Assembly: GCF_002715865.1 (NCBI RefSeq)
Contig: NZ_CP017696.1
Coordinates: 1,488,001 to 1,552,000, forward strand
Reading direction: 5' to 3'
DNA: 64,000 bases
From: Bifidobacterium asteroides DSM 20089
Lineage (GTDB): Bacteria > Actinomycetota > Actinomycetes > Actinomycetales > Bifidobacteriaceae
The translations under genes and the position numbers were made by a program. Positions within the stretch are counted from its first letter, which is position 1. Each line of letters opens with the position of its first letter. The notes under the pieces were generated by a model. That model was given only the letters and a program-made list of their open reading frames with translations. It ran no database searches and was not told the DNA's origin. This document shows positions 15,322 to 51,426 of the stretch, piece after piece.

Positions 15322-16472
15322 GCGGCGCTACGCAGACGTCCTAAGGCCAGCTCCAGCTGCTCGTCAGTGATGGTTGACGAGAATCGCAGACAGTGGCCGT
15401 CCCCATAGAACTCCCCTGGACTGGCCAGAATACCAAGACGGGACAGGTCCGCCATATCGGCCCAACAGTCGCCCGAACGGGCTTGCGCCCAGATATAAAG
15501 GCCTCCTTGAGGCATGACGGCATCGTATCCGTAAGATCTGAGAGCTTCAGCCAGGGCATGCAGACGACTGGCGTAGACGCCACGCTGGGCCATCACAGCC
15601 TCACCGTCCTCCAAGGCGGCCCGCATGGCCCGCTGCACCGGACCTGGCACAATCAGTCCCATCTGCTTGCGGTAGGCGGTCATGGCCTCCACCAGACGAG
15701 CATCGCCGGCCACCAGGGCTGCCCTGTATCCGGCCATGTTGGACTGCTTGCTCATCGAGTACAGACAGAGTATCCCACTGGCATCGCCGCCACAGACTTC
15801 AGACTCCAGTATGCAGGGCGATGCGGGAATCTGCGCATCCCGCCCATCCTGGGCGGGCCCTGACCAATCCAGCAGGGCATAGCACTCGTCACTCAGGACA
15901 GTGACCCCTATAGAACGGGCCGCCCGTACGATCTTAGCCAATCCGGCCCGGCCGATGATTCGACCGCTGGGGTTGCCCGGCGAATTGATCCATATTGCTC
16001 GAACGCCTGGCAGATTCACCCATGAATCCGTATCAACAGGATTGTCCACGGTCGTCACCTGGGCCCCGGCCAGCTGGGTTCCGATGGCATAGGTGGGATA
16101 GGATACCGTCGGTTGCACCACCCGGTCCCCCGGTCCCAGATGCAGGAGTGAGGCCATGAGCGCCACCGCCTCCTTGGATCCCACCGTGGGCACCAGATCC
16201 GCCCCCAGGGCATCCAGATCGACTCTGCGGCGACGTCGGAACCAGTCGGCCGCGGCCTGCCTCAGGGGGGCGTCACCGGCGGTTTTTGGATATCCCCGTG
16301 CCTGGCCGTCATCCGCAGCCGCCGCCAAGGCCTCCTTGACCGACCTGGGCACAGGATCCACCGGCGAACCCACCGACAGGTCCACCAGACCACCGGTGCA
16401 TTGCTCCGCACGCCGACGGTAAGGGTCAATCCTTGACCAGTCATAGGGGGATTCAAAAGAGTGAAAACCCAT
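15318..16472 (-). CDS. dapC: Succinyldiaminopimelate transaminase-type aminotransferase
   Basis: A 384-residue fold-type I PLP aminotransferase. Visible features are VGSKEAVALMASLL (PLP phosphate region), NSPGNPSGR, SDECYALLDW and the Schiff-base Lys in YSMSKQSNMAGYR. The combination with fdxA just upstream is the usual actinobacterial fdxA-dapC pair, supporting assignment to lysine/diaminopimelate synthesis. The ATG at 16472 (MGFHSFESPYDWSRI) matches the family start; a longer frame to 16538 runs into the terminator region and is rejected. Confidence 0.88.
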   Translation of the reverse strand: MGFHSFESPYDWSRIDPYRRRAEQCTGGLVDLSVGSPVDPVPRSVKEALAAAADDGQARGYPKTAGDAPLRQAAADWFRRRRRVDLDALGADLVPTVGSKEAVALMASLLHLGPGDRVVQPTVSYPTYAIGTQLAGAQVTTVDNPVDTDSWVNLPGVRAIWINSPGNPSGRIIGRAGLAKIVRAARSIGVTVLSDECYALLDWSGPAQDGRDAQIPASPCILESEVCGGDASGILCLYSMSKQSNMAGYRAALVAGDARLVEAMTAYRKQMGLIVPGPVQRAMRAALEDGEAVMAQRGVYASRLHALAEALRSYGYDAVMPQGGLYIWAQARSGDCWADMADLSRLGILASPGEFYGDGHCLRFSSTITDEQLELALGRLRSAA

Positions 16473-16489
16473 GGCCCGCCTTCCTCGTA

Positions 16490-16527
16490 TAAATAAGCCG
16501 CGGCGGGATGACTCCCATCCGCGGCTC
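16490..16527 (-). terminator. Hairpin between fdxA and dapC
   Basis: Minus-strand stem AGCCGCGG (16519-16526) paired to CCGCGGCT (16496-16503), with a GGATGGGAGTCATCCCGC interior that itself pairs, then TTATTTA. It resembles a weak terminator and may partly separate fdxA from dapC expression. Confidence 0.6.
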
Positions 16528-16543
16528 GTCAGCCTCATTTCAA

Positions 16544-16861
16544 CTACTTGTTGGGTGGCAGGGCTGCCACACCCTCCGGATCGTGATCGTAGGGACCGAC
16601 CGCAGCAGCGCCGCCGGCATCCCCCACCTGGGCGAAGAAATCAGTCGCCGCATCCTTATACCAGGTCCACTCCTCGGGCAGGTCGTCCTCGTAGAAGATG
16701 GCCTCCACCGGGCAGACCGGCTCGCAGGCGCCGCAGTCCACGCACTCGTTGGGGTTGATGTAGAGCGAACGGACGCCCTCATAGATGCAGTCCACCGGGC
16801 ATTCGTCCACGCAGGCCTTGTCCTTGACATCCACGCAGGGCTGAGCGATGACGTAGGTCAT
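16544..16861 (-). CDS. fdxA: Ferredoxin, 7Fe-8S type
   Basis: A 105-residue ferredoxin that carries electrons in the cytosol. The N-terminal cysteines are C-x7-C-x3-CP, a 3Fe-4S-type arrangement, followed by the full [12 protein letters not shown] motif for a 4Fe-4S cluster (about residues 39-50). An acidic C-terminal extension is typical of actinobacterial FdxA. It follows the APC permease by 57 bases and precedes dapC. Confidence 0.93.
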
Positions 16862-45325: not shown

Positions 45326-45371
45326 GGTTCACCTCTATAGTCGTTGCACGACCGACGTATGTCGGCCACAG

Positions 45372-45445
45372 TAGCGAGGAAGAGACTCGAACTCTTGACC
45401 TTACGATTATGAGTCGTACGCTCTAGCCAGCTGAGCTACCCCGCC
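45372..45445 (-). tRNA. tRNA-Met (anticodon CAT)
   Basis: 74 nt. The acceptor GGCGGGG pairs with CCTCGCT through two G-U pairs; anticodon loop CTCATAA gives CAU; T-loop TTCGAGT. The first acceptor position is paired, so it reads as an elongator rather than an initiator. CCA is not encoded. Confidence 0.92.
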
Positions 45446-45449
45446 AGAG

Positions 45450-45521
45450 AGCCTCGGGTGAGAATCGGACTCACGACCTCTTCCTTACCAAGGAAGTGCT
45501 CTGCCACTGAGCTACCGAGGC
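45450..45521 (-). tRNA. tRNA-Thr (anticodon GGT)
   Basis: 72 nt. Perfect acceptor GCCTCGG/CCGAGGC; anticodon arm CTTCC-TTGGTAA-GGAAG gives GGU, reading ACC/ACU. Discriminator U, CCA not encoded. It lies between tRNA-Tyr and tRNA-Met in one transcript. Confidence 0.95.
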
Positions 45522-45522
45522 G

Positions 45523-45604
45523 TGGCGGATAGAGGATTCGAACCTCTGAAGCATTACGCGGCTGATTTACAGTCAGCTCCCTTTGACCGCTTGGGAAATC
45601 CGCC
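45523..45604 (-). tRNA. tRNA-Tyr (anticodon GTA)
   Basis: 82 nt with a long variable arm, as expected for bacterial tRNA-Tyr. Acceptor GGCGGAT pairs with ATCCGCC; anticodon arm CTGAC-TGTAAAT-CAG gives GUA. Discriminator A, CCA not encoded. First tRNA of the cluster. Confidence 0.94.
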
Positions 45605-45720: not shown

Positions 45721-46872
<1,152 letters not shown>

Positions 46873-46886
46873 TTAGGACATGTGTC

Positions 46887-49082
46887 TTAGAGCATGCAGC
46901 TGACACAGCCCTCGACCTCGGTGCCCTCCAGTGCCTGCTGGCGGATCCTGATGTAGTAAAGGGTCTTGATTCCCTTGCGCCAGGCATAGATCTGAGCCTT
47001 GTTCAGATCGCGGGTGGTGGCCGTGTCGGGGAAGAAGAGGGTCAGAGAGAGTCCCTGATCCACATGCTGGGTGGCCTCGGCATAGGTGTCCACAATCTTC
47101 TTCCAGCCGATCTCGTAGGCGTCCTCGAAGTAGTCCAGGTTCTCGTTGGTCATGTAGGGAGCCGGGTAGTAGACGCGCCCGATCTTGCCCTCCTTGCGGA
47201 TCTCGATTTTGGAGGCAATCGGGTGGATGGAGCTGGTGGAGTGGTTGATGTAGGAGATGGACCCGGTCGGCGGAACGGCCTGGAGGTTCTGGTTGTAGAT
47301 GCCGTCCTTGAGGATGGCCGCCTGGAGTTCCTTCCAGTCCTCCACTGTGGGAATGTGGACCTTGTACTGGTCGAAGAGGTCCTTGATTCGCTGGGTCCTG
47401 GGCTCCAGGGAACGGCTGCCCTCGGTGTACTTGTCGAAATAGTTCCCCTGCCCTGCCGGCTTGGCATAGTCGGACTTGGCGAAGGAGGCGAAGGCCTTCC
47501 CCCGCTCCACGGCCAGGGCATGGGAGGCCCTGTAGGCGTGGTAGGCCACGGTCATGAAGTACATGTCGGTGAAGTCCAGCCCCTCCTCGGATCCGTAGTG
47601 AATGCCCTCGCGGGCCAGGAATCCATGGAGGTTCATCTGACCCAGGCCGATGGCGTGACCCTCGTCGTTGCCCCGCTTGATGGAGGGGACGGCCTCGATG
47701 TTGGTGTGGTCAGAGACGGAGGTCAGGGCACGAACCGAGGTTTCGACTGTATCAGCCAGGCCGCCGTCCATGGCCTTGGCGATGTTGAGGGATCCCAGGT
47801 TGCATGAGATGTCCCGACCGATATGCTCATAGTTCAGGTTCTCGGAGTAGGTGCTGGGCTCCTGGACCTGCAGGATCTCCGAGCAGAGGTTGGACATGGT
47901 GATCCGGCCGTCGATGGGGTTGGCCTTGTTGACCGTGTCCTCGAAGAGGATGTAAGGGTAGCCGGACTCGAACTGGATCTCGGCCAGGGTCATGAAGAAG
48001 TCGCGGGCGTCGATGTACTTCTTGTGGATCCGCTTGTCCTTGACCATCTCCTCGTAGTGCTCGGTGATGGAGATGTCGGCGAAGGGCTTGCCATAGACCC
48101 GCTCCACGTCGTAGGGCGAAAAGAGGGCCATGGGCTCCTTGCGCTTGGCCAGCTCGAAGGTGATGTCGGGGATGACCACGCCCAGGGCCAGGGACTTGAT
48201 GCGGATCTTCTCATCCGCGTTCTCCCGCTTGGTGTCCAGGAAGCGCATGATGTCAGGGTGGTGGGCCGACAGGTAGACGGCGCCCGCACCCTGGCGGGCA
48301 CCCAGCTGGTTGGCGTAGGAGAAGGAATCCTCCAGGAGCTTCATGACCGGGACCACGCCACTGGACTGGTTCTCGATGTGCTTGATGGGTGCGCCCATCT
48401 CGCGCAGGTTGCTCAGCAGCAGGGCCACGCCGCCGCCCCTCTTGGACAGCTGCAGGGCAGCGTTGACGCCGCGGGAGATGGACTCCATGTTGTCTTCGAT
48501 GCGCACCAGGAAGCAGGAGACCGGTTCGCCGCGCTGAGCCTTGCCCAGGTTCAGGAAGGTGGGGGTGGCCGGCTGGAAGCGTCCGGAGATGATCTCGTCC
48601 GTGTACTTCATGGCGGCCTGCTCGTCCCCGTCGGCCAGCTCCAGGGCCACGGCCACACAGCGCTGGGGGAAGTCCTCCAGGTAGCGCTTGCCGTCGAAGG
48701 TCTTCAGCGCATAGGAGGTGTAGAACTTGAAGGCGCCCAGGAAGGTCTCGAATTCGAAGCCGCTCTCGGCCGCATGCTGATAGATCCTGTCCAGGAACTC
48801 AGGTGTGTAGCGCTCGAAGACCTTCCGGTCGTAGTACTCGTGATCCAGGAGGTAGGTGATCCTCTCGGCGGTGGAGGGGAAGGCCATGGTGTTGGGCCCC
48901 ACGTGCCGGTCCATGTACTGGCGCTCGGCCTCGCGGTCCTTGTCGAACTGAATCCTGCCGTCCTTGTCGTACAGGTTCAGCATGGCATTCAGGGCATGGT
49001 AGTCGTGAGCCGGATCGAAGGTCTCCTCATCCTCGGATGCGGTCCTGTCCAGGGCCAGGGACGTGTCCTCGTTTGCTCCCAT
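46887..49082 (-). CDS. nrdE: Class Ib ribonucleotide reductase, catalytic subunit
   Basis: A 731-residue NrdE reducing ribonucleoside diphosphates. Motifs: [21 protein letters not shown] with the first active-site Cys, NLCSEILQ with the radical Cys, SCNLGSLNI with the second redox Cys, [12 protein letters not shown], the YY pair in [10 protein letters not shown] for radical transfer, and the C-terminal CVSCML shuttle. There is no N-terminal ATP cone of the NrdA type. Start chosen at ATG 49082 (MGANEDTS) with AAGGA 6 bases upstream. It is the only large subunit in the window and must serve both NrdF1 and NrdF2, or NrdF2 needs another NrdE elsewhere. Confidence 0.96.
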
Positions 49083-49133
49083 CGGGTGTCCTTTCATGAG
49101 TATTGCGGTGATGATGTGTGTAATGAAATTGGC

Positions 49134-49631
49134 TCAGGACTCGGGGTGGTTGCGGAAGAAATCCACAACCCCGCGGCGGACCTTCTCCTGGTCCTCCTTG
49201 GTGCCCATGAGCTCGAAATAATAGAGGAAGGGCACATTGCACTTGCGGGAGATGATGTCCCCCGCCATGCAGAAGGCCTCCCCAAAGTTGGTGTTGCCCG
49301 AGGCGATGACCCCGCGGATGCCGGCCCGGTTGGCCGGATCGTTCAGGAAGCGCTTGATCTGCGGCATGACAGCCTTCTTGGCCGATCCTCCCCCATAGGT
49401 GGGGACGATCAGGATGTAGGGCTGTCGAATGTTGAGGGGCGGATCCTTGGGCCTCAGAGGGATGCGGAAGACGTCAATCCCCTCGTCATCCAAATGGCAG
49501 TTGGCGATGAACCGGGCGGTGTTGCGCGAGGCCGACGAGAAGTAGACCACGGCCCCCAGGCGCTGACCCTGGGCGGCGAACTCGGGAGCGCTGAGCTCCG
49601 AATCAGTTCCGGCGGTCTGCTGTTGCTCCAT
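49134..49631 (-). CDS. nrdI: NrdI flavodoxin-like activase 1
   Basis: A 165-residue NrdI, an FMN protein that supplies an oxidant to the NrdF metal site. Phosphate and flavin contacts are visible: VVYFSSASRNTARF (about residues 28-41), [13 protein letters not shown] and GVIASGNTNFGEAFC. It starts the nrdI1-nrdE-nrdF1 operon; GGAGGA precedes the ATG. Confidence 0.94.
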   Translation of the reverse strand: MEQQQTAGTDSELSAPEFAAQGQRLGAVVYFSSASRNTARFIANCHLDDEGIDVFRIPLRPKDPPLNIRQPYILIVPTYGGGSAKKAVMPQIKRFLNDPANRAGIRGVIASGNTNFGEAFCMAGDIISRKCNVPFLYYFELMGTKEDQEKVRRGVVDFFRNHPES

Positions 49632-49721: not shown

Positions 49722-49771
49722 GAACTACTATATGTGCTATCGATATTGAAAACGGTGAGCATATATAGGGT
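49722..49771. promoter_or_regulatory. Degenerate NrdR-box pair upstream of nrdI1
   Basis: Two AT-rich imperfect palindromes, around CTACTATATGTG (49722-49740) and GAGCATATATAGGG (49756-49771), about three helical turns apart. They resemble the better NrdR boxes at 51379-51426 but have 1-3 mismatches each. They lie in the 175-base gap between nrdF2 and nrdI1, which also must hold the nrdI1 promoter. Confidence 0.4.
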
Positions 49772-49806
49772 TTTATGTGCCCAATATCACACCGGTTCCA
49801 ACTCTC

Positions 49807-50871
49807 CTAGAAGTCCCAGTCGTCGTCGTCCGTGGACTCGGAGTGCCCCATGACGTAGGAGGAGCCCGAACCCGAGAAGAAATCATGGTTCTCGTTGGCC
49901 GATGGCGACAGGGCCGCCAGGATCTCCGAACTGACATCGGTCTGGTCGGCCGCGAACCGGGCCGGATAGCCCAGGTTCATCAGCGCCTTGTTGGCATTGT
50001 AGCGAACGAAGGCGAAGACGTCCTCGACGAAGGGGAAGCCCTCATAGATCTGCCCCGAGTAGACCATCTCAAGGTCGTAGAGCTTGTCCAGCAAATCGTT
50101 GGTGAACTTCTCCAGCATGGCCTGGTCGGCCTTGGTCCTCTCCTCCAGACCACGCTGATACTTGTAGCCCGAGTAATAGCCATGGATGGCCTTGTCGCGT
50201 AGAATCAGCCGGATCATGTCGGCCGTGTTCATCAGCTTGGCATGGCTGGAGAAGTAGAGGGGCAGGTAGAAGCCGGCATAGAGCATGAGCGAGGAGAGCA
50301 TGGTGGAGGCCACCTTGCGCTTCAGGGGATCCTCACTGACATACTCGTGCAGGACCGTGTGGACGCGCTCCTGGAGGACGTCGTTGGCCACGGCCCAGCG
50401 GTAGGCCTTGTCGATCTCCTCGCTGGAGCAGAGGGTGGAGAAGACCGAGGAGTAGGAGCGGGCATGAACCGACTGCATGAAAGCGATATTGGTGTAGATG
50501 GCCTGCTCCTGCTCGGTGCGAGCGTGATCGATCTGCACCAGCTCGCCAATGGTGGCCTGGGTGGTATCCAGCATGGTCAGTCCGGTGAAGACACGGACCG
50601 TGGTCTGGCGCTCGTGGTCGGTCAGGGTGTTCCAGGATGGGATGTCGTTGGACAGGGGCACCTTCTCGGGCAGCCAGAAGTTGGAGACCAGGCGGTTCCA
50701 GACCTCCAGATCCTTCTCGTCGGTGATGTTGTTCCAGTTGACCGGGCGAATCCTGGCCTCAGGGGTGACCCGGTACTGGGGTGGGGTGATGGACTTGCGC
50801 ATCATCTCGTCGTCGGCATAGACGCCGGCCTCGGACTTGTTGCTCTCTTCGGTGTTTTCCTGCTGGCTCAT
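49807..50871 (-). CDS. nrdF2: Class Ie-type (metal-free, QSK variant) ribonucleotide reductase R2 subunit
   Basis: A 354-residue NrdF homologue. With a constant +35 offset from E. coli NrdF, the ligand positions are Asp102, Gln133 (was Glu), His136, Ser193 (was Glu), Lys227 (was Glu) and His230; the radical-site Tyr140 is kept ([36 protein letters not shown]). Gln-Ser-Lys is the known signature of class Ie R2 proteins. These hold no metal and instead use a tyrosine hydroxylated to DOPA by NrdI-derived superoxide. The remainder of the fold and the DDDDWDF tail are intact, against decay. It overlaps nrdI2 by 4 bases. NrdR boxes lie upstream of the pair. Confidence 0.92.
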
Positions 50872-51356
50872 GACAAAACCGCCTTTCGTGAATCAGTCGA
50901 CTGCTGCTGGAGCTGCACTCCCATTCCGGCCAGGATGGCCCTGACCGCCTGAACATCCTCCGAGGTGCCCAGCAGCTCAAAGCGATAGAGCTCGGGGACG
51001 CCGCATCGGCGGGCTATCAACGGGCCGGCCGCGCAATATGCGCTGCCGAAGTTCCGGTTGCCCGAGGTGACGACTCCGCGGATCAGTCCGCGATTGACCG
51101 GATTGTTCAGGAAGTGGATGACCTGCTTGGGCACGGCTCCCTTGGCTGACCCACCGCCATAGGTGGGCACCAGCAGAAGGTAGGGCGCATCCATAACGGG
51201 CATGGGCTGGCGCCGCTCGTACAGAGGAATGCGGATTGGCTCCTCCACGCCCAGCCGCTGCACAAAGCGGTGGGTGTTGTTGGAGACGCTGGAGAAGTAC
51301 ACCAGCTTGGAGGCGCCATCCGGGGGATCGTGCCGATCCACATCTGCTGAGGACAT
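50868..51356 (-). CDS. nrdI2: NrdI flavodoxin-like activase 2
   Basis: A 162-residue NrdI paralogue with [14 protein letters not shown] (FMN phosphate loop), [13 protein letters not shown] and [15 protein letters not shown]. In class Ie systems NrdI makes the superoxide that modifies the R2 tyrosine, so the 4-base overlap with nrdF2 is functionally telling. Start chosen at ATG 51356 ([10 protein letters not shown]), AAGGAG about 11 bases upstream; the frame is open to 51416 over the NrdR boxes. Confidence 0.92.
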
Positions 51357-51378
51357 AGTGACTGCTGCTCCTTGGTAA

Positions 51379-51394
51379 ACACTATATATTGGAT
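51379..51394. promoter_or_regulatory. NrdR box 1 upstream of nrdI2
   Basis: ACACTATATATTGGAT; the central CTATATATTG fits the NrdR consensus CWATATATWG. It overlaps a likely -10 (TATATA on the minus strand), with TTGGCT as a possible -35. Paired with box 2, 32 bases away. Confidence 0.75.
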
Positions 51395-51410: not shown

Positions 51411-51426
51411 CCACAATATATAGGTT
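51411..51426. promoter_or_regulatory. NrdR box 2 upstream of nrdI2
   Basis: CCACAATATATAGGTT; CAATATATAG fits CWATATATWG exactly. It is 32 bases (three helical turns) from box 1, the normal NrdR pair spacing. NrdR is the dATP/ATP-sensing repressor of nrd genes. Confidence 0.75.

Follow-up and report, generated by a model that had tools for sequence, protein, structure and literature searches.

The closest described systems to the gene pair presented here are the class Ie ribonucleotide reductases of the QSK kind. The R2e-QSK protein of Gardnerella contains only trace metal; its Tyr150 is converted to DOPA only upon co-expression with NrdI, a conversion that increases when NrdH and the entire operon are included, and CDP is reduced only by the DOPA form with reduced NrdI (PMC11846895). 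No radical was present after purification, and the amount of product remained below that of the VPK control (PMC11846895). The same publication reports 275 QSK genes in 266 genomes, every one of which belongs to Actinomycetota; 104 of these genes are arranged as nrdIF, and virtually all QSK genomes in which nrdE is missing beside the pair encode it in another stretch (PMC11846895).

The genome of Bifidobacterium asteroides DSM 20089 is a single contig of 2.19 Mb, and the window studied here, meaning the whole stretch of DNA analysed (64,000 nucleotides), corresponds to bases 1488001–1552000. It carries a pair of genes, nrdI2 and nrdF2, that matches the nrdIF pattern with a separate nrdE described in PMC11846895. 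NrdF2 is thus a further example of the already described QSK kind, of which a characterized close relative is known.

The nrd locus and its promoters

The nrd genes of the window are all on the minus strand, in the order nrdI2, nrdF2, nrdI1, nrdE, nrdF1. nrdI2 (50868..51356) codes for a flavodoxin-like NrdI, as indicated by the open reading frame, profile matches (TIGR00333, 148.6 bits, and PF07972, both obtained with the 182-aa frame) and a tree. The listed frame of 182 aa starts at TTG 51416; the ATG at 51356, which yields a protein of 162 aa, is the better start, as the ribosome-binding site AAGGAG lies upstream of it at 51373–51368. The coordinates proposed in the earlier note, including this start, were right. 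nrdI2 overlaps by 4 bases with nrdF2 (49807..50871, 354 aa). The native operon consists of nrdI1 (49134..49631; open reading frame, profile and tree), nrdE (46887..49097), which profiles and a genome search identify as the only full-length class I R1 gene found in the genome, and nrdF1 (45721..46851), which according to its open reading frame, profile match and site alignment encodes a normal R2b with the site DEHYEEH. The true start of nrdF1 is probably an ATG at about 46716 rather than the listed GTG. Three tRNA genes (Met, Thr and Tyr, minus strand) are located just downstream of nrdF1, at 45371–45604.

Besides the full nrdE, the genome contains one 3′ fragment of nrdE elsewhere, one NrdH gene situated away from the operon, a class III NrdD and one NrdR. 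As the strain retains both a normal R2b and a class III enzyme, the QSK protein is an addition and not the sole route to deoxyribonucleotides. Judged by NrdF2, the nearest named relatives are Bifidobacterium choladohabitans, B. mellis and B. apousia (97–98% identity), which are species of the honey-bee gut.

Two NrdR boxes precede nrdI2 on the minus strand. Box 1 (51411..51426), found by pattern search, occurs in 13 of 13 aligned upstream regions; box 2 (51379..51394) follows 16 bp past it and occurs in the same 13 regions, with one base changed in L230. The usual spacing of NrdR boxes is 15–16 bp, as given in an excerpt of PMC12051234. When the window was searched with a 16-base NrdR pattern, one nrdI2 box was recovered at 3 mismatches, a result equalled in 2 of 100 shuffles. 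A shorter pattern recovered both nrdI2 boxes without mismatches, together with two overlapping one-mismatch matches at 35.1 kb, and four matches were reached in 1 of 100 shuffles. Upstream of nrdI1, a weaker NrdR-like box was recognized by eye at 49757..49772 (minus strand), with similar sequences in 13 of 15 regions, and a second one, also by eye and with a 32-bp period, at 49725..49740 (minus strand); the box at 49757..49772 was matched by neither of the two pattern searches. In two genomes with no detected nrdI beside nrdF-QSK, an NrdR box is found upstream of nrdF-QSK itself. With a pair of boxes before both nrdI2 and nrdI1, the nrdI2-nrdF2 and nrdI1-nrdE-nrdF1 units each seem to have a promoter of their own and to be controlled by NrdR. 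One DtxR-type consensus had no match in the window at up to 3 mismatches, which argues weakly against control by metal.

The active site of NrdF2

Profile searches place NrdF2 among the class Ib-type R2 proteins, and it shares 60% identity with NrdF1 over 315 columns. At positions 102, 133, 136, 140, 193, 227 and 230 NrdF2 reads D-Q-H-Y-S-K-H and NrdF1 D-E-H-Y-E-E-H. Site alignment thus bore out the substitutions that the earlier note had reported at the three positions where R2b has a Glu ligand, namely Gln133 (codon 50473..50475), Ser193 (50293..50295) and Lys227 (50191..50193; minus strand, coordinates computed from the open reading frame). It equally confirmed the claim that Asp102, both histidines (His136 and His230) and the radical tyrosine are intact; Tyr140 (50452..50454, minus strand), the predicted DOPA and radical site, corresponds by alignment to Tyr150 of 8RAG. 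Tyr339 is also kept. Trp66 and Tyr339 are invariant across 27 aligned sequences and the acidic tail is retained; by what is known from other R2 proteins, we take the two residues to serve radical transfer and the tail R1 binding. The top PDB matches of NrdF2 are 8rag and 8rah (608 bits), with Gln, Ser, Lys and the tyrosine in register.

Two other assignments were considered and rejected. NrdF2 does not qualify as a class Ib R2 (dimanganese NrdF), since the three Glu ligands are absent, whereas NrdF1 possesses the full ligand set; nor is it a class Ie protein of the VPK variant, as Gln, Ser and Lys are present instead of Val, Pro and Lys. The further features of a class Ie QSK system, an NrdI gene and a genomic R1, are provided by nrdI2, nrdI1 and nrdE.

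The QSK site among relatives

The seven site positions were compared in 86 R2 proteins, representing 80 named loci, the window and one further locus of the same genome: 44 carry DQHYSKH, 41 carry DEHYEEH, one is an odd third copy and none is intermediate. Among the distinct core sequences of a wider set of loci, those of the window included, 65 are QSK and 40 are EEE, and none is mixed. Counted by place, this set holds 86 QSK and 69 EEE entries, the same genomes being repeated in these counts; four rows (‘-PHP---’ twice and ‘----C--’ twice) were dropped as short frames beside real genes. Thirteen additional R2b genes of the genus, outside the wider set, all read DEHYEEH.

In a quick R2 tree of 84 rows chosen from the wider set, built without the seven site columns and arbitrarily rooted, all 46 QSK rows fall on one side of a single branch (support 100, starred), and NrdF2 of the window lies within a group of 21 Bifidobacteriaceae QSK rows (99, starred). 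This tree and the NrdI tree discussed below were both obtained by a brief search that yields a single support value, and contain no VPK rows. NrdF2 is accordingly placed in a QSK clade apart from R2b. The ‘Aerococcus-type QSK clade’ named in the earlier note does not hold: Aerococcus urinae is listed as VPK, and the QSK genomes found all belong to Actinomycetota (PMC11846895).

A second full R2 gene is present in 18 of 27 genomes of the genus, and in all 18 this second gene is QSK. For QSK and R2b alike, 105 pairs were compared, drawn from 15 of those 18 genomes in which both occur; mean pN/pS was 0.067 in QSK and 0.066 in R2b. Furthermore, QSK is the sole PF00268 protein found in seven other genomes of the family (G047, G051, G053, G125, G128, G140 and G141).

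Predicted mechanism and alternative explanations

By analogy with the Gardnerella enzyme, NrdF2 is predicted to form an R2 dimer of the ferritin-like fold that contains neither Mn nor Fe and in which Lys227 would occupy one metal position. Tyr140 would be hydroxylated to DOPA by oxygen and reduced NrdI, the product of nrdI2 being the presumed supplier of the oxidant, and the DOPA would then be oxidized to a DOPA radical. This radical would initiate catalysis in NrdE by way of Trp66, Tyr339 and the acidic tail; the one full-length NrdE is probably common to NrdF1 and NrdF2. We infer that NrdF2 would resemble Gardnerella R2e-QSK in lacking metal, in depending on NrdI for DOPA and in being active. 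The class Ie QSK identity put forward in the earlier note is supported; the relative with about 80% identity is metal-free and DOPA-dependent (PMC11846895). We are confident that nrdI2-nrdF2 represents a class Ie (QSK) gene pair with a metal-free DOPA mechanism, a confidence that concerns the nature of the pair and does not extend to its acquisition.

The loss of three ligands in a gene adjoining a normal nrdF1 would also be expected if NrdF2 were a decaying R2b duplicate with a dead site. However, an identical trio in 65 distinct sequences with no mixed sites, the grouping of these sequences in one clade, the conserved promoter boxes and the seven relatives in which QSK is the only PF00268 protein found all argue against such decay, and the pN/pS values, equal to those of R2b, indicate that NrdF2 is subject to purifying selection of R2b strength and is not decaying. 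The judgement of the earlier note that random decay is unlikely was thus sound, and we regard a dead site as extremely improbable. It is likewise very unlikely that NrdF2 still binds and uses one metal ion: Asp102, His136 and His230 are left as possible ligands, but in the structures 8RAG and 8RAH a lysine occupies metal position 1 and a water molecule position 2, and the protein concerned holds only trace Mn/Fe (PMC11846895).

Compatible with the class Ie explanation is the proposal that nrdI2-nrdF2 acts as a metal-independent backup of NrdF1 under metal limitation. The presence of one full nrdE and two R2 proteins with a common acidic tail speaks for this role, as does the inference of the authors of PMC11846895 that QSK and normal R2 proteins can use the same R1. 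Against it, the window yielded no match to the one DtxR-type consensus, and NrdR boxes stand before nrdI2, with weaker ones before nrdI1, instead. We consider such a backup role possible but rather doubtful, and the usefulness in a metal-starved gut niche that the earlier note proposed is not supported.

Origin of the nrdI2-nrdF2 pair

NrdI1 is placed with the native bifidobacterial NrdIs in a quick tree that covers 72 of the NrdI proteins found. NrdI2 falls into a group of 33 rows that contains only QSK-linked NrdIs (six from the genus of the window and 27 from other Actinobacteria); the support of this group is 93, not starred, and its branch is long. The pair was probably acquired from another actinobacterium. 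The QSK-linked NrdIs of Gardnerella and B. thermophilum are placed with the native NrdIs. On a simple reading, nrdI2 and nrdF2 would have arrived jointly, and in Gardnerella the QSK gene would have displaced the native nrdF within the old operon. Against this reading, the QSK gene has no detected nrdI neighbour in five of the 18 QSK genomes of the genus (G013, G014, G015, G023 and G024), so that nrdI2 would have disappeared from these genomes or been gained in a separate step. In view of this and of the modest support for the NrdI2 group, it is uncertain whether the two genes were acquired as a pair.

A third R2 homologue outside the window

The same genome encodes a third R2 homologue, NrdF3 (G000:C1:11765-13102, minus strand, in L116), recognized by its R2 family match, with relatives in L149–L160. 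It appears twice owing to a repeat of at least 16.7 kb shared by the contig ends (L116 and L118; 99.8%, 0 mismatches, 31 gaps), which is most simply explained as terminal redundancy of an uncircularized assembly with small indels. Strong matches to NrdF3 occur in 13 of 189 genomes of the family, its own included, and the other 11 unbroken copies are 60–75% identical to it. The only broken copy among the 13, that of G122 (L152, 5076-6371, minus strand), contains an in-frame TGA.

All 12 unbroken copies match PF00268, and an NrdF3 profile retrieves R2 structures first. Their site reads EEHYEIS in eight, EEHYQIS in three and ESHYQLS in one; compared with R2b, the Asp ligand is replaced by Glu, one Glu by Ile or Leu and one His by Ser. 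The Tyr of the site is thus kept, but the radical-path Tyr near the C terminus is missing, as the last 60 residues contain no Tyr in any of the 12 copies; all end in DDDWDF and so retain the R1-binding tail. Judged from these residues, NrdF3 looks unable to pass on a radical. In each of the 12 relatives, the PF00268 proteins found are limited to a QSK R2 and NrdF3, and none is an EEE R2b; the genome of the window is alone among the 13 in carrying all three R2 kinds. Three QSK genomes (G125, G128 and G051) have neither R2b nor NrdF3.

NrdF3 shares 38% identity with NrdF1 and 34% with NrdF2 (313 columns). Seven of the 12 relatives have NrdF3 downstream of nrdI and nrdE, three of them with an intervening gap of 1–2 kb; for the other five, the 12 kb covered revealed neither nrdE nor nrdI. 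Its greater closeness to NrdF1 and its gene position suggest descent from R2b, a descent that the R2 tree, with a very long NrdF3 branch and an arbitrary root, cannot show. In the genome of the window, a second nrdE, reduced to a 3′ fragment (L116:14409-15008, minus strand; residues 542–736, 85% identical to NrdE of the window), lies near NrdF3, and a dehydrogenase-like gene separates the two. As NrdF3 stands here beside an nrdE fragment of only 195 residues, it may have arrived recently in this genome or be a remnant there. L116:1-1111 is repeated at 15456-16569 (98.7%) and includes pieces that, by eye, resemble a MerR-type regulator and a DEAD-box helicase.

NrdF3 evolves more rapidly than QSK or NrdE: its mean pN/pS is 0.35 (66 pairs), compared with 0.11 for QSK (55 pairs) and 0.12 for NrdE (21 pairs). 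The dN/dS values of the eight least diverged NrdF3 pairs, 0.17–0.49, point to purifying selection, though weaker. It is conceivable, though we put this forward tentatively, that the uptake of QSK freed the old NrdF and that NrdF3 is a conserved pseudoenzyme that would bind NrdE or pair with the QSK protein, helping or throttling metal-free reduction; yeast Rnr4 is presumably an analogue of such a partner. The main rival to this kept function is that NrdF3 is slowly decaying in a clade for which R2b has become dispensable. Beyond the family, among 297 genomes sampled from the order, only the genome of the window gave a match (E<=1e-60); this draw is a sample and not a census, and the other known NrdF3 carriers cannot be in it. 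We found no description of NrdF3 in the open-access literature on R2 proteins of bifidobacteria, R2 pseudoenzymes, Rnr4-like R2 proteins and class Ie in Bifidobacterium.

Comparison with known systems

The residue finding is correct, and the proposed chemistry of NrdF2 is very likely. The added interest of this strain beyond the known kind resides in its setting of one R1 and several R2 proteins, and in NrdF3. With one full-length R1 gene, and with genes for a metal-type and for a metal-free R2 that are separated by about 3 kb and both seem to be under NrdR control, the window provides a natural side-by-side test within one genome and makes it possible to ask when the cell employs either R2. 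NrdF3, if its function is kept, would exemplify a standard R2b that persisted in a non-radical partner role once a metal-free R2 had taken over, and would offer a route to studying R1 regulation.

The R2e-QSK of Gardnerella vaginalis (Bifidobacterium vaginale; 8RAG/8RAH) is about 80% identical to NrdF2 (315 columns; proteins of L010 and L012); the seven site residues are the same and both proteins end in TDDDDWDF. In Gardnerella, however, QSK is the only class I enzyme and belongs to an nrdHIEF operon (PMC11846895), whereas here an nrdI-nrdF pair precedes a class Ib operon that is intact, and nrdH is located elsewhere. The VPK proteins of class Ie, from Mesoplasma florum, Aerococcus urinae and Streptococcus pyogenes, would by analogy share the metal-free DOPA-radical mechanism, but have Val, Pro and Lys where NrdF2 has Gln, Ser and Lys; they are found mostly in Bacillota and their genes are ordered nrdFIE in virtually all cases (PMC11846895). 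The class Ib R2 proteins (dimanganese NrdF), exemplified by NrdF1, belong to the same family as NrdF2, have a similar tail and an NrdI nearby; unlike NrdF2, they possess the full set of metal ligands and are expected to contain a metal cofactor.
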